Shown here: positions 7,614 through 49,891 of the stretch, in pieces
Numbering within the stretch: the stretch's first letter is position 1
Layout: the number at the start of each line of letters is the position of its first letter
Origin: Deltaproteobacteria bacterium IMCC39524
GTDB taxonomy: Bacteria > Desulfobacterota > Desulfuromonadia > Desulfuromonadales > BM103
Length of the DNA: 64,000 nt
Assembly (NCBI GenBank): GCA_029667085.1
Contig: JARUHJ010000001.1
Coordinates: 124,001 to 188,000 of the forward strand
Reading direction: 5' to 3'
Notes under the pieces: generated by a model
Told to the model about the DNA's origin: nothing
What the model saw: only the letters and a program-made list of their open reading frames with translations
The model's database searches: none
Translations under genes and position numbers: made by a program

Positions 7614-8510
7614 ATGGTTTGCTTACTTGTCAAGATCCTCATTTGTTCTGTTATCCTGGCCCCTTCTCTGGTTTTTGCAGTTGATTCGGCTCAGGATGCC
7701 GATTTAACCATCAATCCTATAGTGATCCAGTACAAGCAACTCCAGTTGAGTACCACCTCGGCAGCATCGACGTTTACGATTACTAACATGGGCGTCTCAG
7801 ACCGGACTGTGAGTACTGTGAGCCTGGCTGGAGTTGATGCCAACGAGTTCGTAATCGGCACGCATAGTTGTTCGGCGGCAACTCTGTCTTCAGGACAAAG
7901 TTGTGATGTACCGGTAAGCTTTGCCCCTAAAACCCGAGGAACCAAGAATGCCGAGTTGAGGATTAGCACGGATGACAGTGAAACGCCCGTATTGACCGCT
8001 TATGTAACCAATTACACTAGTGCTATCGTTGAGGCTCAGCGACGTTTGCCGCCAGTACTGGCGACCAACAGCCTGCCGGAGTCGATGCAGGCCAGCAATG
8101 AATACACTTTGTCTTGGACCTTGGAAGGTTACCACGACAGCTACTATTCATACGCAGTGTTGTTTGACTGCACGGGAGAGACGGATTGCGGTGCATTTTA
8201 TTCCGATGCGTCGAAGTTTGCCGAATCTGGACCTCTTTCACCAGCTTCAGTCACGCAAGGGAACTGGACCTATCATGGTGCAGCAACCAAGCTGCACACT
8301 TATGAATGGAACTTTACCGTGCCAGTGAATCGTGCTGACAGCAGCGCCTGGGATGTTGTCGGGACTGATATCGTACTGCGCATCTATCGTAAAAGCGACA
8401 TTGACAATGAGCGGGCTAGTAGCAGCGTGTCCTTATTAATCCCGGGGAATCAGTCGGACCGTTACTACGATACTGCAGGCCGGCGCCTGCTGAAGACGAT
8501 TGTCCCTTAA
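7614..8510 (+). CDS. Secreted choice-of-anchor-D-like protein sharing the giant protein's C-terminal domain
   Basis: 298 residues. An AGGAGG ribosome site overlaps the stop of the upstream gene, and the ATG follows about 6 bases later. Residues 1-22 form a signal peptide (hydrophobic core then VFAVDSA). Residues about 35-135 are a choice-of-anchor-D/ASPM-SPD2-Hydin-like beta domain with the typical 'CSAATLSSGQSC.V.V.F.P' pattern. Residues about 140-298 parallel the C-terminus of the upstream giant protein: both have RR.PPVL, YTL.W...GY, LSP.SV..G.W.Y.G, SLLIPGN and YYD..GRRL ending in IVP. The gap of 11 bases on each side indicates an operon. The function is not recognised. I infer an extracellular partner or a shortened paralogue of the giant protein. 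Confidence 0.8.
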   Translation: MVCLLVKILICSVILAPSLVFAVDSAQDADLTINPIVIQYKQLQLSTTSAASTFTITNMGVSDRTVSTVSLAGVDANEFVIGTHSCSAATLSSGQSCDVPVSFAPKTRGTKNAELRISTDDSETPVLTAYVTNYTSAIVEAQRRLPPVLATNSLPESMQASNEYTLSWTLEGYHDSYYSYAVLFDCTGETDCGAFYSDASKFAESGPLSPASVTQGNWTYHGAATKLHTYEWNFTVPVNRADSSAWDVVGTDIVLRIYRKSDIDNERASSSVSLLIPGNQSDRYYDTAGRRLLKTIVP

Positions 8511-8521
8511 GGAGAACGATT

Positions 8522-8920
8522 ATGTATATCCGTGCGAGTGTTGTTATCACCTTGGTGCTGGCTCTGCTTTGCGTAGCCTTGCCCGGTTTAGCCTCCAAGG
8601 GAGGTCAGAAGAGCCTGGGGAAGGTAAAACAATTACGTGCAGCTACTGTTGAGGATGGAATCCAGCTGTCTTGGCAGTCGGTCGATAAAAGTGATGGTTA
8701 TCGTATCTTCCATGTTCAGGGTAAAGAAGTTAGCGTCAATGTCGACTCTGTTGAAGTTGGAGAAGGCCAGACGAGTTACCTTTTTGTAACCGATAGCACA
8801 CAGACGTTTAGTTTTGCTGTGGCGGCTTTGAATGGGAGCGAAGTTGGTCCACTATCGCCACGAGTGACGGTGAAGGGTAATAATTCTACGGGGAATACCC
8901 GTAGTGATACTGGGATTTGA
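8522..8920 (+). CDS. Small secreted fibronectin type III-like protein
   Basis: 132 residues, with a clear AAGGAG site 8 bases before the ATG. The N-terminus is a signal peptide (hydrophobic residues 5-23, then PGLASKGG). The rest reads as one fibronectin type III fold: VKQLRAATVEDGIQLSWQ, then YRIF, then a C-terminal strand with FAVAALNGSEVGPLS, the usual FnIII end pattern. The Ser/Thr/Asn-rich tail (NNSTGNTRSDTG) is probably disordered. It starts 11 bases after the previous gene, so it belongs to the same operon. It probably acts outside the inner membrane as a binding module. No enzyme motif is visible. Confidence 0.75.
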   Translation: MYIRASVVITLVLALLCVALPGLASKGGQKSLGKVKQLRAATVEDGIQLSWQSVDKSDGYRIFHVQGKEVSVNVDSVEVGEGQTSYLFVTDSTQTFSFAVAALNGSEVGPLSPRVTVKGNNSTGNTRSDTGI

Positions 8921-8944
8921 TTTGAAGGAGTGGGAGTTGAAGTT

Positions 8945-9217
8945 ATGAAAAATAAGAAACTAGGATGTCACGAAAATGAGGTCCCTCAGGTTGTAAAACC
9001 TGATGAGCAGTTGGTTGACGAAGAGCGCCGCGCGGCGATGAAAAAATATGCAAAATATACCGTTGGTACCGCGGTTGGCGTCCTTCTTCTGATGTCACCT
9101 CAAACCTCGGCCGTTGCCGCCAGCGATGGTGGACCATTTGGCCCGAGCCAGTTCTTTTATCCCGATGGCACCCCTAAACAATTTAATCCCGATGGCACCC
9201 CAAAATTACCTTATTGA
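8945..9217 (+). CDS. Small peptide with RR-motif membrane segment and PDGTPK repeats (candidate modified peptide precursor)
   Basis: 90 residues. I chose the ATG at 8945 because GGGAG lies 8 bases upstream; the in-frame GTG at 8930 is less likely. The polar N-terminus (about 40 residues) ends in QLVDEERRAAMKK, then comes a hydrophobic segment (YTVGTAVGVLLLM) and a possible cleavage site (TSAVAAS). The remaining 26 residues hold two copies of F[YN]PDGTPK and end in LPY. The layout matches the second small protein at 46003: both have QLVD..RR....K, a hydrophobic stretch, A-S/A-A, and a short tail. Both are directly followed by a PqqD/HPr-kinase-like gene. I infer a precursor peptide that is modified and sent to or across the inner membrane; no modification can be proven from sequence. 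Confidence 0.7.
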   Translation: MKNKKLGCHENEVPQVVKPDEQLVDEERRAAMKKYAKYTVGTAVGVLLLMSPQTSAVAASDGGPFGPSQFFYPDGTPKQFNPDGTPKLPY

Positions 9218-10370
9218 TGGCGATTTAGAAAAGGGGAAGGCTAGGCAATGCCTGCAGATCAATCCGGAGCTGTCACTTTTCCTGTTTGACGACGAGTCCA
9301 TCCTCTATTCTAAACGCAGCCAGCGTCTGTTAGGCCTTGATTTCACTGCGACAGGCATGCTTTTAAAGCTTGCTGAAGGTGTGACAGTCGACTCTCTGGC
9401 TTCTGAGCTTACTCTCAATTCCGCTGACTATGAGCAGGTAATGACCCTGGCTGCCATTCTAGGCGGTTGTGAATCGGAGGCGGGGTACTATCGACAAGAA
9501 CCTGTCTGCCCCAAAACGGTCTCTACCGATCTACATGACGGACCTTTCTACCAGCTCCTCACGACAATCTTCACGATTGAATGCTCTGACAAAGATCTCC
9601 GTGCACGTCTTCATGATGAAATTGCACATCTTCAAGTTGTTCCTAATCAACATCCATCGCTTGTGATCTCCTTGTCCCCTGTAGGAGGTCGCTGGATATT
9701 AAGTTTCAATGGTGCTGCGCAGAGTGACGAGGTCTTGCCAGAAAAGAACCTTCTTACTTTATTGCTAGGGCGCCTGCGTATGTTTGTCTTTCACCAGTTG
9801 CCATACCTGCTGACATTACACGCTGCTGCCGTAACCAACGGTCAGCAGACCTTGGTCTTCCCAGGAGTGTCGGGCTCGGGAAAAAGTACGCTTGCAGCCA
9901 GTTTGCTTGCCAAAGGTTTTACGCTGGTTGCAGATGAAATTGTTATTTTCAGTGATAGCAGTAGTGTTTGTCCAGTCCCACTCGGGATAGGTGTTAAAGA
10001 GGGAAGTTGGTCTGTTCTCCAAAAAGACTACCCTGAGATCTTGTCACAACCTGAGCATTATCGTTGGGATCAGTTGAGAGTTCGCTATCTTGGCGATGGT
10101 CAGGTTAAGTTCGCAAATAATGAAATAGATAATACGGACTTCTTTTTTTTCTTCCCATCATACGCCCCAGATTCAATCGGAGAGTACAAACGTATTAGCA
10201 CAGTAAATGCTTTGTGGCGATTGAATCATGCCGGGTACCAAGTCCGCTACCTAGATGATGAAAACGTTCCCCAGATTATTGATTTGTTGAGCTGCAATCG
10301 CGCTTATGAGCTATCATACTCATCTTCAGAAGAAGCTTTTATGCTCATCAATTCGATTTTAGCTGAATGA
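9192..10370 (+). CDS. PqqD-like/HPr-kinase-like (HprK-related) protein
   Basis: About 392 residues from the last in-frame ATG at 9192. The start is uncertain: this ATG sits inside the second PDGTPK repeat of the upstream peptide gene, in another frame, and has no clear ribosome site. A purine-rich GGGGAAGG lies at about 9231-9240 with only a CTG in frame after it. The N-terminal ~90 residues resemble a PqqD-type winged-helix peptide-binding domain (RSQRLLGLDFTATGMLLKL). The C-terminal part has an HPr kinase-type P-loop (GVSGSGKST, about residue 225), a Walker-B-like LVADE and a PLGIGVKEG element. HprK-related kinases phosphorylate protein or peptide Ser residues; one such kinase acts on the lasso peptide paeninodin. 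The target here is probably the adjacent peptide, by inference. Confidence 0.78.
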   Translation: MAPQNYLIDGDLEKGKARQCLQINPELSLFLFDDESILYSKRSQRLLGLDFTATGMLLKLAEGVTVDSLASELTLNSADYEQVMTLAAILGGCESEAGYYRQEPVCPKTVSTDLHDGPFYQLLTTIFTIECSDKDLRARLHDEIAHLQVVPNQHPSLVISLSPVGGRWILSFNGAAQSDEVLPEKNLLTLLLGRLRMFVFHQLPYLLTLHAAAVTNGQQTLVFPGVSGSGKSTLAASLLAKGFTLVADEIVIFSDSSSVCPVPLGIGVKEGSWSVLQKDYPEILSQPEHYRWDQLRVRYLGDGQVKFANNEIDNTDFFFFFPSYAPDSIGEYKRISTVNALWRLNHAGYQVRYLDDENVPQIIDLLSCNRAYELSYSSSEEAFMLINSILAE

Positions 10371-42699: not shown

Positions 42700-43788
42700 A
42701 TGATGAAGAAACTTTTGAAATTATCTGGACTGATGATTTACACAATCATCTTCGGTGAAACCTTCCTGCGCATTATGGCGCCGCAGCCCCTGATGCCACG
42801 CTATGTAACCGGCTCTGCAGATGGTGTCCGGGCGAATATCCCGAATGTTACTTATCATCATAAGACTCCAGAAGTTGATGTGGAAATCCGCATTAACGCA
42901 CAAGGGATAAGAGCCGACCGGGAATTCAGCCTGGAAAAACCTGAAGATACTTATCGAATTGTTCTGCTCGGCGATTCCTTCTTTATGGGTTATGAGGTTG
43001 AGCTTGAGAATAGTCTGGCCTGGCTGTTGGACGAAAAACTGCGGGGCAGGGGCGTCAACGCCGAGGTCATCAATCTGGCCGTGTCCGGCTTCGGTACTTC
43101 AGAGAACCTGATTGCATTGAAAGAACGTGGGCTGCGATACGATCCTGACCTGGTCATTATGGAATGGCATGCAACCGACCCTTCCGACAACATTCGGTCA
43201 AACCTGTTCCGGTTGAATGATGATCAACTCGAAACAGTTAGCCCTGCCTACCTGCCTGGAATCTCGAAACGTGATGCATTAATGCGCATTCCTGGTTATC
43301 CATGGCTTGTCGGCAACAGTCACCTGTACAGCTCGGTGCGCGAAAAAGCTGCTACTGCTGTTAAGGGTCTTTTGCTGGCTTTAAACCGGTCGCCAGCTAA
43401 AGAAACCGAAGCAGCAGATAGCTCACCCGCCGTTGCAGATGTCCTGGATGAAACTTTGATCAAGGCAGTGCAGCGTGAAGCGGAGAGTGTTGGTGCCGAG
43501 TTTGTTTTACTGGATGTGCCGATACGCCAAAGCCGTGTCGCATACAAATCGGCATTGAGTGCCCTGGAACTTGAAGAATTGCATAATGTAAATCTCGTTT
43601 CCCCCCTGGATAAGTTAATGCAGGAATCCTCCCCGGAAAAGAAACTGTATTTTGAACAAGGGCATGGCCACTGGACTGTTGAAGGAAACAGGATCGTTAC
43701 TGACGTTCTTGCTGATGCTCTTTTCTCAAAAGTCGAAAGTGTTGCAAATTTAGCCGCAAGAAAAAACCATTCCAAGTTGCCGCTATAA
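42700..43788 (+). CDS. SGNH/GDSL hydrolase-type acetyltransferase partner (AlgJ-like)
   Basis: 362 residues. An N-terminal membrane anchor (LLKLSGLMIYTIIFGETFLRI) leads into an SGNH domain with IVLLGDSFFMGYEVELENSL (block I Ser), INLAVSGFGTSENLIAL (Gly block) and EWHATDPSDNI. The C-terminal GHGHWTVEGNRIVTDVL carries the catalytic Asp/His region. It most probably takes the acetyl group from the MBOAT protein and hands it to the polysaccharide. It ends 1 base before the next gene. Confidence 0.88.
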   Translation: MMKKLLKLSGLMIYTIIFGETFLRIMAPQPLMPRYVTGSADGVRANIPNVTYHHKTPEVDVEIRINAQGIRADREFSLEKPEDTYRIVLLGDSFFMGYEVELENSLAWLLDEKLRGRGVNAEVINLAVSGFGTSENLIALKERGLRYDPDLVIMEWHATDPSDNIRSNLFRLNDDQLETVSPAYLPGISKRDALMRIPGYPWLVGNSHLYSSVREKAATAVKGLLLALNRSPAKETEAADSSPAVADVLDETLIKAVQREAESVGAEFVLLDVPIRQSRVAYKSALSALELEELHNVNLVSPLDKLMQESSPEKKLYFEQGHGHWTVEGNRIVTDVLADALFSKVESVANLAARKNHSKLPL

Positions 43789-43789
43789 G

Positions 43790-44740
43790 ATGAAGAATCG
43801 AATTGCCGGTTTCTACTCTCTTCTCCTGTGGTGTGTTGCTGGAATCCTGTTCTCTTGGTACATCCTACATCTCACTCGTGGTGATCATTTCCTTCCCGTT
43901 CGCCTGCTCACTTATATCACTCCCTGGGTGACAATTGCCGCAATTTTGGCCGCTCTCAGTGCCTGGTTCTTACAAAAATTCAAACTAGCAGCAACGCTTT
44001 CCTGTTTGTTCCTGCTGCTCGCTTACCCTTACATATCACAGTTCATACCTAGGAGTGTTGATCCGGGACCAGGACCAACCCTCAAGGTGATGACCTACAG
44101 CGTGATGGGCCGTAATCATGACTATGATGCGATGGCCAGAGTTTTTGCCGAGTATCAGCCTGACCTGGCGTATTTTCAGGAGGTCGGGCAGGGAGCACTC
44201 GAAGACAAGCTAACAGCACTTTCTGTGCACAAGAAACTCTACTTCGTGACGACCAATAATATCGGTTTTATCGTCAGCCGATATCCCATTGAGTTGGAAG
44301 AAGAAGCCAGGCCCTTTTCCCGTTTTACTCTCACGCTGCCACAGGGCGCTGTGTCTCTCTGGAATGTGCACACCTGGAAGGCGATCAGAAGTTACGATGC
44401 ACAATACGGGCAGATCAAAGCCTTGACTGAGGCTGTTGGCAAGACCTCCGATCCGATGATTGTGGCGGGTGATTTTAACGCGACTGAGATGAGTGAGACC
44501 TACCGGATGATGGCTGCTCATCTCAAAAATACCCATGCGGAGGCCGGGTTTGGTTTTGGCTTTACCTTCCCGACTCCGGCCCGGAGGATGGGGAGTCTGT
44601 TTCCTTTTTTGCGGATAGATCATATTTTTTACAGTCAGCATTTTGAGGCAATCAGTAGCAAGGTTGGTGAGAATGCTGGTGGGTCCGATCATTTACCGGT
44701 TATTGCTGAGTTGAGGCTGGTGGATGATAGGGTGGAGTAG
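43790..44740 (+). CDS. Membrane-anchored endonuclease/exonuclease/phosphatase family protein
   Basis: 316 residues. Three membrane segments occupy the first ~85 residues (LLLWCVAGILFSWYILH and two more). The rest is an EEP domain: KVMTYSVMGRNHDYDAMARV, AYFQEVGQG (metal Glu), VWNVHTW-type strand, VAGDFNATEMSETYRMM and RIDHIFYS, ending GGSDHLPVIAELRL. These motifs fit a Mg-dependent phosphoesterase facing the periplasm. EEP proteins of this layout can act on phospholipids, but no substrate is evident. It follows the acyltransferase partner by 1 base. Confidence 0.85.
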   Translation: MKNRIAGFYSLLLWCVAGILFSWYILHLTRGDHFLPVRLLTYITPWVTIAAILAALSAWFLQKFKLAATLSCLFLLLAYPYISQFIPRSVDPGPGPTLKVMTYSVMGRNHDYDAMARVFAEYQPDLAYFQEVGQGALEDKLTALSVHKKLYFVTTNNIGFIVSRYPIELEEEARPFSRFTLTLPQGAVSLWNVHTWKAIRSYDAQYGQIKALTEAVGKTSDPMIVAGDFNATEMSETYRMMAAHLKNTHAEAGFGFGFTFPTPARRMGSLFPFLRIDHIFYSQHFEAISSKVGENAGGSDHLPVIAELRLVDDRVE

Positions 44741-44800
44741 AGGTCGCCAACAAGCTTAAGGCCGAAAGCATTTATTTGGATATTAGGCTAAAATAAATTC

Positions 44801-45913
44801 ATGCATCCCTACACACAACTTGCAAGACATCTTTCGCCGATGGTCGGTCCCGAGGAGGCTGGTGATGTCGATTGGACGCTGCTACTACAGCTTGCCAACC
44901 TGCACAAATGCACACCGCTCTGGTATGTCCGCCTGTGGGAGAAAGGCCTGCTCGGCGAGTTGCCAACAGGGCTGGTTGAGTATCTTGCCCAGTTGCATGC
45001 CGCCAATGTTGAGCGTAACAGTACACTGAAAAGTGAACTGGCGGAGATTGTCGGCTGGTTTGCAAAAGTGGGAATTGAGGTTGTGTTGTTGAAGGGAGCG
45101 GCGGTATTAGCCGACGATCTCTATGGCGATCCGGGGGCTCGGCTGATGGGGGATCTCGACCTGTTGGTTCCCCCTGATCGGGCAGACGAGGCGCAGCAAC
45201 TGTTGTTGGGCCAAGGCTATGCGCTCTGCCCGCCGGAAGAAGAGAAGGTTGTCTACCGTCTACCGACCGACGTCGATTACCATCTGGAACCGTTGTATCG
45301 ACCAGGCAGTGGTATTGTGGTGGAGGTTCACCACCGGATGATGTCTCGGCAGGGGGGGAGGGCCTTGCCGGTAGATCGGGCCTGGGCCGAAAAGGTTCCG
45401 GCCCCGGGTTTCGGTGATGAGGTGTTTCTGCCGAGCCCTGGTTGGCGATTGCTGCACAATGCTTTGCATGCGTTGCTCCCCTATGGAGAATTTATAAAGG
45501 GGCAAGTACTGCTTTGCAATCTTGCTGAAGCGGCTGCCCTTCTTGAGGTCGGGCATGAGCTGGACTGGAGCGGTTGGGAAGATGCTGGTGGAAAGCATCG
45601 GCTGCGAGCCGAACTAAACGGTTACGCTCTGCTGCTGCACGAACTTATGGACGTCCCGTTTCCTGCAAATTGGCCACCTCTTTCCAAAAATGCCAACCTG
45701 CTCACGCTGCTGGTTGCCGGCGGAGCGAGAGAGGTTGTCTCTCCCTATGAAGACGACGCCAAGCGCTTGCGGCGGCATTACCTCGCCCGGCTGCCAGGCT
45801 ATGCCTGGCACAACGTCTGTTATGCTCCGGGCTGGTGGCGGTTGCCGGAAAGGTTTGGTTGTTTGTTGACGCGCGGGCTGCGAAGCAGCGCCCGGAAAAA
45901 ACTTCGTCTATAA
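44801..45913 (+). CDS. NTP_transf_5-type nucleotidyltransferase family protein
   Basis: 370 residues. The nucleotidyltransferase core is seen at VVLLKGAAVLADDLYGDPGA, then RLMGDLDLLVPPDRADEAQQ, in which the D.DLLV metal site follows the LKG motif. VEVHHRMMS and WRLLHNALHALLPYGEFIK are also typical of PF14907. Such proteins accompany PqqD- and HprK-related genes in peptide-modification clusters, including lasso peptide gene sets with kinases. Here it lies 90 bases before the small RR-motif peptide and 339 bases before the HprK-like kinase. It may extend a phosphorylated group on the peptide, by inference. Confidence 0.82.
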   Translation: MHPYTQLARHLSPMVGPEEAGDVDWTLLLQLANLHKCTPLWYVRLWEKGLLGELPTGLVEYLAQLHAANVERNSTLKSELAEIVGWFAKVGIEVVLLKGAAVLADDLYGDPGARLMGDLDLLVPPDRADEAQQLLLGQGYALCPPEEEKVVYRLPTDVDYHLEPLYRPGSGIVVEVHHRMMSRQGGRALPVDRAWAEKVPAPGFGDEVFLPSPGWRLLHNALHALLPYGEFIKGQVLLCNLAEAAALLEVGHELDWSGWEDAGGKHRLRAELNGYALLLHELMDVPFPANWPPLSKNANLLTLLVAGGAREVVSPYEDDAKRLRRHYLARLPGYAWHNVCYAPGWWRLPERFGCLLTRGLRSSARKKLRL

Positions 45914-46002
45914 ATGATTTGCATTCACTTGAATATGAGTGCTATCTTACAAAACGTCTATGTTGTCGTTTCATAATAGTTTTATCTCGAATAGAGGGTA
46001 AG

Positions 46003-46224
46003 ATGAAGGCGATTCAGAAAAATACAGATAGTGAAGACAATCAGCTCGTCGATGCCTCCCGCCGCGATTTTCTACGTAAGAGCGTTTATGCCGCTTATGC
46101 CACACCGTTGATCACGACATTGCTGGTCCAAAAGGCCAGCGCTGCCGCTTCCTCCGCTGGTACTAATAATCCCAATTGTCAAGATCCCGTCTGGAGTGCA
46201 CTGCGTCCCGGTGTGTGTGAATAA
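46003..46224 (+). CDS. Small Tat-type (SRRDFLRK) peptide, candidate modified precursor
   Basis: 73 residues from ATG 46003 with GAGGG upstream; the longer in-frame extension to 45835 runs back into the preceding gene. The first 25 residues are polar (QLVD near position 14). Then comes SRRDFLRKSVYAAYATPLIT, a textbook twin-arginine signal, a hydrophobic stretch and a cleavage-like KASAAAS. The remaining ~25 residues (AGTNNPNCQDPVWSALRPGV, CE) hold two cysteines. It parallels the peptide at 8945 in layout and local sequence and lies 27 bases before an HprK-like gene. I infer a substrate of that kinase. Confidence 0.75.
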   Translation: MKAIQKNTDSEDNQLVDASRRDFLRKSVYAAYATPLITTLLVQKASAAASSAGTNNPNCQDPVWSALRPGVCE

Positions 46225-46251
46225 AGTTCTTCTCTCAATGTCGCTGTAGTT

Positions 46252-47433
46252 ATGTCTTTTGATTCCGGTGGAATAGCTTTTCATCCCTTTGCTGGCGGTG
46301 CCGCTTTACACAGGACAGGCGGCCATCGGCTCTGGGTTCTGAACTCCAGTTCGGCAGTTCTCTGGTGCTTGCTGGAGGAGCTCGGCGACACTTACGAGCT
46401 CGTTGGGGCCTACGCAGCTCATTTCCGAATTACTTCTGAACAGGCCCATGCTGATGTAAAGCTGGGCCTGGATCATTTTGTACGGGCCGGGTTGCTGCGA
46501 GAAGTGGTTGAGGAAACTCAAGAAAATCTCCCTCTAGATGTGGTTGACCCTTTAAATCGCTCTACCTATCCTTTGCCTATTGTTAAGTCCAGCTCCACTG
46601 CAGTTCGGAGCTTTCAGTTGGGGGGGCTCTCCTGGCAGGTGACCTGTTCCGACTCTGAACTGGGTGAAACATGGCTCTCTCCTTTTACCCATTTGTCTGC
46701 AGCGTTTGATGAACTCCATTGGCGCTTTGACCTGATGGAGGTCGATAACGAGTGGACGATCTGCGGTGATGGGGAGTTATGGTCGGAGCAGCTTTCGGCC
46801 GACCAGGTGCTTCCCAGCTTGCAGGCCGTGCTTTTTGGGTTGCTTTGTGCTGCGCAAGAACATCGCCTGTTGCTGCATGCCGCTGTATTGGTACGCGACG
46901 GCCAGGCGCTATTGTTGCCAGCGGAGGCGGGCAGTGGCAAATCGACCCTGACTTTGGCCTTGGCGGCGCATGGCTGGCAGGTTTACTCAGATGAATTGGC
47001 TCCTCTCGACCCTGTCTTGCTAAAGGTCGATCCATTTCCCTTGCCGATTGGCATTAAGAGTCGCTCTTTGAGCTCGCTGGCAGCCTGGTACCCTGAACTG
47101 GGGGAGGTTCCTGCCCACCGTCGTGCTGATGGCCAGCAGGTCCGCTTTCTGGGAGACCGCACCGCACCGCTGGCCGCATCGAATGCTGCTCCGGCAAAGG
47201 TGTCCCGTTTGATCTTTCCTTGCTACAAAGAGAATACAGAAACACGTTTGCGTCGTTTAGAGCCTCTTCACGCGCTTGAACTGCTTGCTTGCACAGGCTC
47301 ATCGCAACGCGCCCTGACTGAAACAGATGTTGCCGCCTTGCTGACCCTTGCTGAAAAACGTGAATGCTGGCTGCTCGAGTATACCGAGGTCGCCGAGGCA
47401 GTAAAAGCCTTACGTGAAGAGAGTCTGGTTTGA
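46252..47433 (+). CDS. PqqD-like/HPr-kinase-like (HprK-related) protein, second copy
   Basis: 393 residues. The N-terminal ~85 residues look like a PqqD-type peptide-binding domain (HRLWVLNSSSAVLWCLLEEL). The C-terminal kinase part has AEAGSGKSTLTLALA (P-loop near residue 224), VYSDELAPLD and PIGIKSRSLSSLAAW. The last two correspond to the Walker-B-like and substrate loops of HPr kinase. P-loop position and total length are nearly the same as in the copy at 9192, though overall identity is modest. It lies 27 bases after the RR-motif peptide, and no HPr gene is nearby, so sugar-transport control is unlikely. Confidence 0.82.
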   Translation: MSFDSGGIAFHPFAGGAALHRTGGHRLWVLNSSSAVLWCLLEELGDTYELVGAYAAHFRITSEQAHADVKLGLDHFVRAGLLREVVEETQENLPLDVVDPLNRSTYPLPIVKSSSTAVRSFQLGGLSWQVTCSDSELGETWLSPFTHLSAAFDELHWRFDLMEVDNEWTICGDGELWSEQLSADQVLPSLQAVLFGLLCAAQEHRLLLHAAVLVRDGQALLLPAEAGSGKSTLTLALAAHGWQVYSDELAPLDPVLLKVDPFPLPIGIKSRSLSSLAAWYPELGEVPAHRRADGQQVRFLGDRTAPLAASNAAPAKVSRLIFPCYKENTETRLRRLEPLHALELLACTGSSQRALTETDVAALLTLAEKRECWLLEYTEVAEAVKALREESLV

Positions 47434-47614
47434 AAGCTTTCATGTGTGGTGGATTGTCAAGGCCCACCTTCATCAAATGTGTTCCCTTCCAAAGTCTGAC
47501 ACGTTTAGGACAGGTATACAGCATAGCTGCGCTGCCTGCTAATTAATTGGTTTATAATAAAAAAAGTCTTGTTAATCCTTCCTGACTACTGTAATTTGTC
47601 AAAACTTTTCTTGC

Positions 47615-47701
47615 CTTCTCCGACAAGAGCAACTCCGGAGCAATCCGGATACGCAAAGTCAGGGGTCACAATGACGTGACCGCCCAACTACCGAAGAGAA
47701 G
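47615..47701 (+). promoter_or_regulatory. Cyclic-di-GMP-I (GEMM-I) riboswitch, second copy
   Basis: The core reads CTCCGACAAGAGCAACTCCG, GAGCAATCCGGATACGCAAA, GTCAGGGGTC and CGCCCAACTACCGAAGAG. The closing stem is CTTCTC (47615-47620) with GAGAAG (47696-47701). It matches the aptamer at 29167 block by block, including GCAA, ACGCAAAGTC and the final CCGAAGAG. It lies 228 bases before the polyprenyl glycosylphosphotransferase start and thus heads the export operon. I see no clear T-run terminator in the following bases, so the expression platform is not resolved. Confidence 0.82.
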
Positions 47702-47928
47702 ATCGCATTCCGGTTTCAGGGGGATTTGCTTTTGCAATTCCCTTGTGCAGTTATGACGGCCCTTCTTCGGAAATATCTGAGGGGGGTCTTTTTGCATTCA
47801 AGGGGAGTTGTCGATATCTGCTGGCAATTAAGAAAAGTTTGTTTGCCGTTGGCGGGTATTGGTTGGTGGAAAGCAATCGTTAACAACTTGACGGCAGTCG
47901 TCAAGTCAAGCATAAACCGGGGGGTACA

Positions 47929-49365
47929 ATGCTACGTGAAGAGGGGTCCTTATTAAAACAAAAAGGTCTGAAGGTTCTCGACCTGCTGCTTACTTGCGTT
48001 GCATTTGGCCTCGCCTATGAGTTAAAGCAGTCTTGGCTGGGCGTTTTTTCCGGGCTTGTTGGCAACGTTAACTACCTGCTGGTTCTGTTGACGACTCTTA
48101 TCTGCTGTGCTGTCAGCTACGATTTCTTTAATCTGCACAAAATCGAGCGCCGCGTCGATATCGATACACAATTCCGTAGTATTTTTAAAGCTGTTATTGC
48201 CGGTTCGGCATTGGCAGTTTTTTTGTTTTATGTGTTTAAATACGACCAGGTCAGCCGCTTGTTTTTTGCTTTTTTCATGATTTTTGATTTGCTGCTTCTC
48301 CTGGTGAGCCGGATGGTTATTGCTAAATTGGGCCTCTGGAGAAGTCGCGGCAGTATGGGCCATCGGCATGTCCTGGTGATTGGCAGCCTTGAGCGGGCCC
48401 GTGACCTGCTCAATCTTATGGCCTCTGACAGTGAACGTCGATTGGAACTGGTCGGATGCCTGGATCCTGATCCTGAGCGGGTTGGCAAGACGGTCGTTCC
48501 CGGGGTGACCGTACTCGGTACCATGGATGACTACGAATCAATGATTCTTGACCGGGCGATCGATGAGGTGGTGTTCGCCATGCCGTTGAAGTTGATCTCT
48601 GATGCCCGTGAACGGATCGGATTTGCCGAGAAAGTTGGGGTCAATGTGCGCGTTATGCCGGACTGGCAATTGCAGAAACTGATGTTTCAGCCTGAGATTG
48701 CTTCGATAACCGTGGAAAAATTCGCCGGTATGCCAACTCTGGCTCTTTCTTCCGTGCCGAGAAACGAATTCGAGTTGTTTCTCAAGTACCTGTTTGATCG
48801 AGTGGCGGCGGCCTGTGGCCTGATGTTTCTGGCCCCTCTCTTTGTTGCTCTGGCCCTGGTCATCAAGTTTAGCAGCAAGGGGCCTGTCTTCTTTCGCCAG
48901 GAGCGCAGCGGTCTGAATGGTCGCCTCTTCACTCTACTCAAATTCCGCACTATGGTTGAAAATGCAGAAGAGTTGAAAGCTGCTCTGGCCGATCAGAACG
49001 AAGTAGACGGACCGGTCTTCAAGATAAAGGCTGATCCTCGCATCACAATGGTAGGCCGGTTTTTGCGTAGAACCAGTCTCGATGAATTGCCACAGCTCAT
49101 CAATATCCTGCGTGGAGAAATGAGTCTGGTGGGACCACGCCCGCCGATCCCTGCGGAGGTCAAGGATTACCAACCGTGGCAGCGTCGACGTCTTTCGATG
49201 CGGCCGGGTTTAACTTGTATTTGGCAGGTGAGTGGCCGCAATAATATCACCTTTGACAGGTGGATGGAGCTAGACCTCGAATACATCGACCATTGGTCCA
49301 TCGGTCTTGATGCAAGGCTGCTCTTTAGGACTGTGCCTGCTGTCCTCTTTGGCAGTGGGCAATAA
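47929..49365 (+). CDS. Undecaprenyl-phosphate glycosylphosphotransferase (WcaJ/EpsZ-like)
   Basis: 478 residues. Four membrane segments at the N-terminus, a CoA_binding_3-type domain ([19 protein letters not shown], then EVVFAMP), a fifth segment ([20 protein letters not shown]) and the catalytic sugar-transferase domain: [70 protein letters not shown]. It puts the first sugar-1-phosphate on undecaprenyl phosphate and so starts the repeat unit. It is the first gene after the second c-di-GMP riboswitch. Confidence 0.95.
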
Positions 49366-49423
49366 GATTCTGATAAACTAATATCCGTTATTTGTTGTGC
49401 TAATGAAAACGAAGGAGAAGCTC

Positions 49424-49891
49424 ATGTTGCGTACTTTTTTGATAATGATCTGCTTGATTTTGCCGAGTTTACCGGTTTTTGCGGTCGAAGACGATGCTGA
49501 AAATCTGCTTGACGAGCAGATTGTAACGAACTGCGCTCTGGATGTTAGTGATGAGGTGGTGGCTATTTTTGAAGAACCTGGGCTGACTCTAGAAGAAATG
49601 CTCGGACGAGCCCTTGATGCCGACTCCAGCCTCTGTGGTGTCCTCTCTGTTGCGAAGAACAAGGGCTATTCTCAGGAACGGGTTCTTGAAATTTTGCTTT
49701 CTGGGATGTCTGGTTCTGTTGACGTACTTGTTAGGGCAGCAATTGATGCAGGCTATGATATGTTGGTTGTCGGTGAGATCTCAATTTCTTCAAGCCAACA
49801 GGTTTCGGTTGGAGAAGCGAGGGTTGACGGATCCTTAGGTGCCCTGGGCGGTTACGGTAGTGGTGAACCTGCTAGCCCTGCTTCTCTTTAA
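49424..49891 (+). CDS. Small secreted protein of unknown function in EPS export operon
   Basis: 155 residues from ATG 49424 with AAGGAG about 7 bases upstream. Signal peptide ends near LPVFAVED. The mature part is acidic and helical, with two cysteines (NCALD and SSLCGVLS), then PGLTLEEMLGRALDA and YSQERVLEILLSG. The tail is Gly/Ser/Ala-rich and probably disordered. I recognise no family. A terminator follows it, so downstream genes may be partly uncoupled. Confidence 0.7.
   Translation: MLRTFLIMICLILPSLPVFAVEDDAENLLDEQIVTNCALDVSDEVVAIFEEPGLTLEEMLGRALDADSSLCGVLSVAKNKGYSQERVLEILLSGMSGSVDVLVRAAIDAGYDMLVVGEISISSSQQVSVGEARVDGSLGALGGYGSGEPASPASL

Follow-up and report, generated by a model that had tools for sequence, protein, structure and literature searches.

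A short twin-arginine peptide, an NTP_transf_5 protein and a PqqD/HprK-related fusion kinase form a probable peptide-tagging cassette in Deltaproteobacteria bacterium IMCC39524

The window analysed here, a stretch of 64,000 nucleotides from contig JARUHJ010000001.1 of Deltaproteobacteria bacterium IMCC39524, contains at positions 44801-47433 a cassette of three genes on the forward strand. They code, in this order, for a nucleotidyltransferase-like protein of family NTP_transf_5, a short peptide of twin-arginine (RR) type and an HprK-related kinase. The kinase is fused to a recognition element (RRE) typical of enzymes modifying RiPPs, i.e. ribosomally synthesized and post-translationally modified peptides. 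Our results make it probable that the cassette produces a small, post-translationally tagged peptide, acted upon by the RRE-kinase, then by NTP_transf_5, and finally exported by the twin-arginine translocation (Tat) pathway. The genes, the RRE fusion, the conservation of catalytic residues, the linkage between peptide and kinase, and the pattern of constant head and variable tail were directly observed. Compared genomes and loci are designated by G and L numbers, respectively (G000 is the genome of the window), and "order" and "phylum" refer to those of the window.

The peptide gene (46003-46224, from ATG 46003 to the stop codon ending at 46224) is preceded by AGAGGGT, which resembles a ribosome-binding site, and codes for 73 residues, SRRDFLRKSVYAAYATPLITTLLVQKASAAASS plus a short tail containing two Cys. 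Alignments and motif tables delimited a conserved head (SRRDFLRKS...YATP...KASA, 46057-46143) with RR at residues 20-21, YATP at 32-35 and ASA at 45-47, and a variable tail representing the putative core (46153-46221). Among nine peptides of the order (36 pairs), codon differences in the head were synonymous in 483 cases and nonsynonymous in 300, compared with 69/703 and 56/711 in the two shifted frames of the same region. Likewise, 676 of 1084 nucleotide changes in these heads occurred at third positions. Mean identity reached 0.74 for heads and only 0.27 for tails, the latter value being 0.24 when one tail was shuffled, and no conservation of Cys was found in the tails. The codon pattern of the head, together with tails that behave as if shuffled, indicates that the gene is real, that its head is constrained at the protein level and that its tail is nearly free. 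Short open reading frames (ORFs) are common in this region (54 of at least 40 amino acids were listed in 7 kb), which might suggest that the peptide is a chance ORF and not a gene. Such an artefact is hardly credible, being contradicted by the strong coding signal and by profile matches that fall in genomes carrying the kinase (see below).

The window peptide carries SRRDFLRK and an AxA site, and one TatC gene was found in G000; the related peptide of G032 exceeds the cut-off of Tat model TIGR01409. Two further positions distinguished the family from control Tat signals. A Pro occurred 15 or 16 residues past the RR pair in 24 of 25 peptides (the exception belongs to module 1, described below), compared with 0/27 and 1/32 in two control sets. 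A Ser was found no more than three residues past AxA in all 25, compared with 0/27 and 4/32. The set of 27 consists of long ORFs, many of one Tat family, and the set of 32, of which 21 carry an AxA, includes some doubtful signals. The conserved Pro sits inside the hydrophobic region; it belongs to YATP or YTAP in nine of ten phylum peptides (module 1 excluded) and to CATP in G032, while VxxP is present at this position in 8 of 14 alphaproteobacterial peptides. In the window peptide the conserved Ser is Ser50 (46150-46152), third residue past AxA and candidate phosphoacceptor. The Ser beside AxA in 25/25 and the Pro within the hydrophobic region would also suit a fusion protein acting mainly as a Tat-proofreading chaperone, in which the RRE masks the signal, phosphorylation beside AxA gates export or cleavage, and the tail stays unmodified. 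We consider this improbable, since the conserved NTP_transf_5 protein would be left without a role.

The fusion kinase (46252-47433, 393 residues) carries at its N-terminus a PqqD-type domain (PF05402, E 2e-7), an RRE of approximately residues 5-86 (46264-46509) that the original prediction had overlooked. Its HprK-related domain matched TIGR04352 (E 1.6e-32) with 112.7 bits, under the 200-bit cut-off, and no match to TIGR00679 (HPr kinase/phosphorylase) was listed. A profile of 14 kinases compared with the PDB gave TbiB1 as best match (E 1.6e-9), followed by HPr kinase (3tqf), TfuB1 and PqqD. The five best Foldseek matches of the modelled RRE were all TbiB1-leader complexes (target TM 0.73-0.81). 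The kinase structure was predicted from two sequences only (window and L003); apart from the RRE and a portion of the central region the model lacked confidence, so that only the RRE was used. The catalytic stretch (46876-46995) comprises H209, the P-loop EAGSGKST (residues 225-232, including K230) and D247-E248. All 14 kinases share H209, K230 and D247, the last being followed by E or D in each.

The NTP_transf_5 protein (44801-45913, 370 residues; PF14907, E 5.7e-42) is encoded by a single copy in G000, that of the cassette. K98-G99, R114 and D118xD120 were kept in 11 homologues, and PF14907 was found in all six neighbours scanned at other loci. Its single-protein model (mean predicted local distance difference test, pLDDT, of 35) was set aside. 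Matches to solved structures, i.e. metallo-beta-lactamases at E of at least 0.015 and one cytidylyltransferase at 0.93, were read as chance. None of the three cassette proteins matched defence-system profiles.

Peptide and kinase were clearly linked in the order. A protein search with the kinase matched 11 of 136 genomes, eight of them along almost the entire fusion (G000, G001, G005, G017, G023, G032, G095 and G100) and three within the kinase part alone (G040, G041 and G074). Profile A3, made of 12 peptide heads, gave nine strong places (69.1-81.5 bits, the next match scoring 24 bits) located exactly in the eight fused-kinase genomes, a census that is partly circular since seven of these genomes supplied A3 sequences. 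G023 supplied none, and what the census newly revealed was the presence of two peptides in G023 and no strong match in any other genome of the order. Profile A6, made of ten alphaproteobacterial heads and that of G237, includes no sequence from the order. At E 0.01 it matched 10 of the 136 genomes, of which six carry the fused kinase (G000, G005, G017, G023, G032 and G095); the chance of at least six is P 7e-7, kinship ignored. The peptide lies directly upstream of the kinase in seven of the eight fused-kinase genomes. In G023, the kinase and one of the peptides each lie close to a contig end (C51 and C9, respectively), with orientations compatible with adjacency; the second peptide is located elsewhere. 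Chance does not account for this linkage.

Beyond the order, strong A3 matches among 395 phylum genomes were confined to G000 and G237, both sources of A3 (next match, 26 bits). A fused kinase is likewise encoded in G237, where NTP_transf_5 follows it and the peptide comes last. Short RR proteins were further sought on the same strand within 2.5 kb of 32 kinase loci and found at 15, which is a lower bound because start-codon and motif filters missed both peptides of the window. The positive loci were those of G040, G041, G296 and G320 (kinase over the TIGR04352 cut-off), G074, G174, G185 (212 amino acids), G237 and G468 (171 amino acids), as well as six of the eight order loci; nothing was found near the G023 kinase. 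The background was nine such ORFs in 165,755 bases, both strands included, partly from loci chosen for their Tat signals. Two loci displayed particular arrangements. At L068 (G174), an RR peptide whose tail is rich in Arg and Glu adjoins an HprK-like kinase, a radical SAM-like protein and a PqqD-like protein that stands on its own. At L036 (G164), an HprK-like kinase is flanked by two lasso-like precursors (YSAPILSRLG... and YFSPNMKELG...).

The pairing also recurs in Alphaproteobacteria, including Sinorhizobium meliloti. In a plasmid collection, 29 records contained a relative of the Leisingera kinase and 92 an Ensifer or Sinorhizobium peptide head. Twenty-two of the 29 kinase records were named in the peptide searches, and an RR peptide was read from the locus in two others (Parasedimentitalea and Methylobacterium tardum). 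In all these 24 records peptide and kinase were within about 2.5 kb of each other; four more kinase records (three Leisingera and one Rhizobium) were covered only by equal genus totals. S. meliloti Ak57 displayed the order serine kinase, nucleotidyltransferase, peptide, and PF14907 was confirmed there. Peptide heads occurred in 71 Sinorhizobium records, of which six had a kinase match. According to annotations, the RR peptide of four kinase-less Sinorhizobium loci lies beside ligD (L144 and L149), about 6 kb from Ku genes (L146) or near glf and glycosyltransferase genes (L145). A chromosomal kinase may serve such peptides in trans. Finally, an RR-type protein was observed upstream in two cassettes annotated as HprK-related kinase A, those of Vibrio alfacsensis and Sphingomonas parapaucimobilis.

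Several observations weigh against the reading of the cassette as a peptide-tagging system. The window peptide scored 10.8 bits with TIGR01409, under the cut-off of 16.7. A "hydrophobic-xxP" motif located anywhere was frequent in controls (15/27), so that it is distinctive only at its fixed position. The 25 peptides are interrelated and their figures consequently describe a family, not independent trials; moreover, one control set is dominated by a single Tat family. Profile A6 failed to detect the G001 and G100 peptides, and matched four kinase-less genomes through three long Tat-type ORFs and one frame of 29 codons. The G023 kinase has no peptide beside it on its contig. The RR scan was negative at 14 phylum loci where the kinase matched only in part or was divergent; among these are G397 and G147, whose kinases have the length of the fusion, and G223, which has an NTP_transf_5-like neighbour as judged by eye. 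Likewise, no RR peptide was found at the Methylosinus kinase locus (L060). At the structural level, Foldseek E-values were 0.011 or worse, and the kinase model was poor outside the RRE (mean pLDDT 47).

The interpretation put forward in the original prediction was partly supported, its leader/core reading being well supported by comparison. A constant coding head with shuffled-like tails, the occurrence of peptide and fused kinase in common genomes and the RRE fused to the kinase all agree with it; putative modification and export would complete the scheme. Two marks of RRE-dependent RiPP systems were found, i.e. a short precursor whose leader is conserved and whose core varies, and an RRE in the putative modifying enzyme.

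The cassette lies in a region of exopolysaccharide (EPS) genes, which had been taken as a hint that the peptide is tied to polymer export. An EPS polyprenyl glycosylphosphotransferase gene is located downstream (47929-49365, forward strand; TIGR03025, E 2.5e-120) and is mentioned for context only. Polysaccharide genes were found near the G000, G005, G023 and G095 loci by comparison with window proteins, and near that of G017 by eye only. None occurred within the stretches read at G001, G032, G100 and G237; neighbours named by eye at these loci were phosphofructokinase-like and trp-like. The S. meliloti cassette has DUF930 as its neighbour at one end and yacG with toxin-antitoxin genes at the other. 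The hint is therefore weak: judging from gene neighbourhoods, an EPS setting appears frequent (about five of nine phylum loci) and not defining. EPS export as a general role is not supported by these neighbourhoods, as four of the nine phylum loci showed no polysaccharide genes within the stretches read.

HprK-fold enzymes act on varied substrates. Together with the share of phylum loci found in polysaccharide clusters, this would fit a scheme in which the RR peptide is exported by Tat like any other small protein, while the two enzymes act on another substrate (an envelope glycan, a lipid or a protein) and the RRE is a scaffold or a relic. We find this explanation unlikely, because it leaves unexplained the common genomes, the pairing found repeatedly in two phyla away from EPS loci, and the structural likeness of the RRE, closest to lasso RREs in complex with leaders.

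Other genes of the surroundings deserve mention. SGNH-hydrolase-like and Exo_endo_phos genes are situated ahead of the cassette (42700-44740), and an Exo_endo_phos relative, 33% identical, likewise stands ahead of the G023 kinase (L087). In the same genome, at L123 (4884-8085), an RR peptide was noticed beside three sulfotransferase-like ORFs (by eye), with wza/wzz-like EPS genes beyond.

A second pair of peptide and kinase genes (module 1, 8945-10370) occurs 36 kb away from the cassette (module 2), and its kinase is the other of the two HprK-related kinases of G000. All three genes of module 2 were found where the original prediction had placed them, with NTP_transf_5 ahead, and the P-loop positions and lengths of both kinases also agreed with that description. 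The alignment claimed for the two small proteins held as well: the module 1 RR peptide (8945-9217, forward strand) was 35% identical to that of module 2 over 51 residues (E 4e-6, single comparison), and profile A6, made of peptides from outside the order, matched both (module 2, E 1.2e-5; module 1, E 0.0036). The kinases were 29% identical over 265 residues (E 8e-25). The module 1 kinase (9192-10370, forward strand; listed as an ORF from TTG 9114 that is probably too long) matched TIGR04352 below the cut-off (E 6.4e-25) and scored 22.3 of the 240 bits required by TIGR00679, the model of true HprK. Module 1 is only a distant relative, devoid of NTP_transf_5 and of the family's fixed Pro. Its rank as an equal copy was rejected, since its kinase finds only kinases of 25-34% identity in the 136 genomes of the order. 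Choice-of-anchor D and fn3-like proteins precede module 1 (region 7614-10370). At L067 (G397), proteins resembling these two again lie ahead of a kinase frame, which contains an internal TAG, and no RR peptide was found between.

From these patterns we infer a succession of binding, phosphorylation of a given residue, second modification, Tat export and cleavage. The RRE of the fusion kinase would bind the constant head, probably at [Y/V]xxP within the Tat-like hydrophobic region. The HprK-type active site would thereby gain access to a Ser or Thr in the tail, the residue most likely to be phosphorylated being the conserved Ser shortly past AxA. NTP_transf_5 could then add a second group, nucleotide or sugar, onto the phosphate. 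Release from the RRE would uncover the twin-arginine signal, Tat would export the modified peptide, and the tail would be freed by cleavage at AxA. If true, RRE-guided peptide modification and Tat export would be joined in one system. More tentatively, the cassette could represent a widespread and undescribed RiPP-like class whose leader is a twin-arginine signal, in which an RRE-kinase phosphorylates, a nucleotidyltransferase caps the phosphate and Tat exports; a single rhizobial cassette may act on several precursors whose genes lie elsewhere. A partial literature search, including parts of PMC12710340, PMC7470986, PMC9266682 and PMC7533575, found no description of the peptide family. The study proposes a likely substrate family for fused relatives of the HPr-rel-A system, with a candidate residue and recognition motif, and places one version in S. 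meliloti, a tractable model.

The HPr-rel-A system, so named in NCBI families together with a "peptide chaperone", associates a TIGR04352 kinase, a PqqD family peptide chaperone (TIGR04353) and a nucleotidyltransferase. The cassette resembles it by its related kinase, PqqD-type domain and NTP_transf_5 partner. Furthermore, a short RR-type protein lies within 2.5 kb at all four phylum loci whose kinase exceeds the TIGR04352 cut-off (G040, G041, G296 and G320). The cassette differs by a kinase scoring below that cut-off and by a PqqD domain that is fused instead of separate; TIGR04353 matched none of the three cassette proteins. The cassette shares the logic of HPr-rel-A families while missing two of their defining marks. 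A text search of the literature with the HPr-rel-A family names found no paper, and no published substrate was met.

Two other systems showed more limited likeness. SynChlorMet models matched weakly, ScmC on the window kinase and ScmD on that of G237, with scores far below cut-off. The SynChlorMet cassette includes radical SAM proteins, and none was found among the seven neighbouring proteins scanned. DUF2282 precursors of DUF2063-RRE enzymes, as presented in the available part of PMC12710340, are also RRE-linked with an export signal within the leader, but that signal is of Sec and not of twin-arginine type and the enzyme partner is another one.

The closest parallel was found with kinases of lasso peptides. 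According to the sections consulted of PMC9266682, these share a His-Lys-Asp-Asp motif, PadeK places a phosphate on the C-terminal Ser of its precursor, and PsmN, annotated as nucleotidyltransferase, is needed to add hexoses to phosphorylated Ser in pseudomycoidin; lasso RREs recognise YxxP in leaders, as stated in the part seen of PMC12710340. A lasso-type RRE, and the HPr-type kinases and nucleotidyltransferases known in lasso clusters (PMC9266682 and PMC7533575), could suggest that the cassette is a lasso peptide cluster in which both enzymes serve for tailoring. This is very improbable, considering that the tails have no common pattern and that neither B2 protease nor C cyclase was found among the seven proteins scanned at 42700-49888, to which this search was restricted within window and genome. 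The cassette further differs from lasso kinase systems by an RRE fused to the kinase, a Tat-type leader and a candidate Ser beside AxA rather than at the C-terminus. Class membership set aside, it most likely works, by analogy, like a lasso-peptide tailoring pair. With PadeK/ThcoK and PsmK-PsmN it shares an HprK-type kinase with the His-Lys-Asp-Asp set, acting there on a precursor Ser, a nucleotidyltransferase partner and a lasso-type RRE, and PadeK, as well as PsmK/PsmN on pseudomycoidin, as far as the same sections of PMC9266682 describe them, offer precedents for the proposed action of kinase and nucleotidyltransferase.

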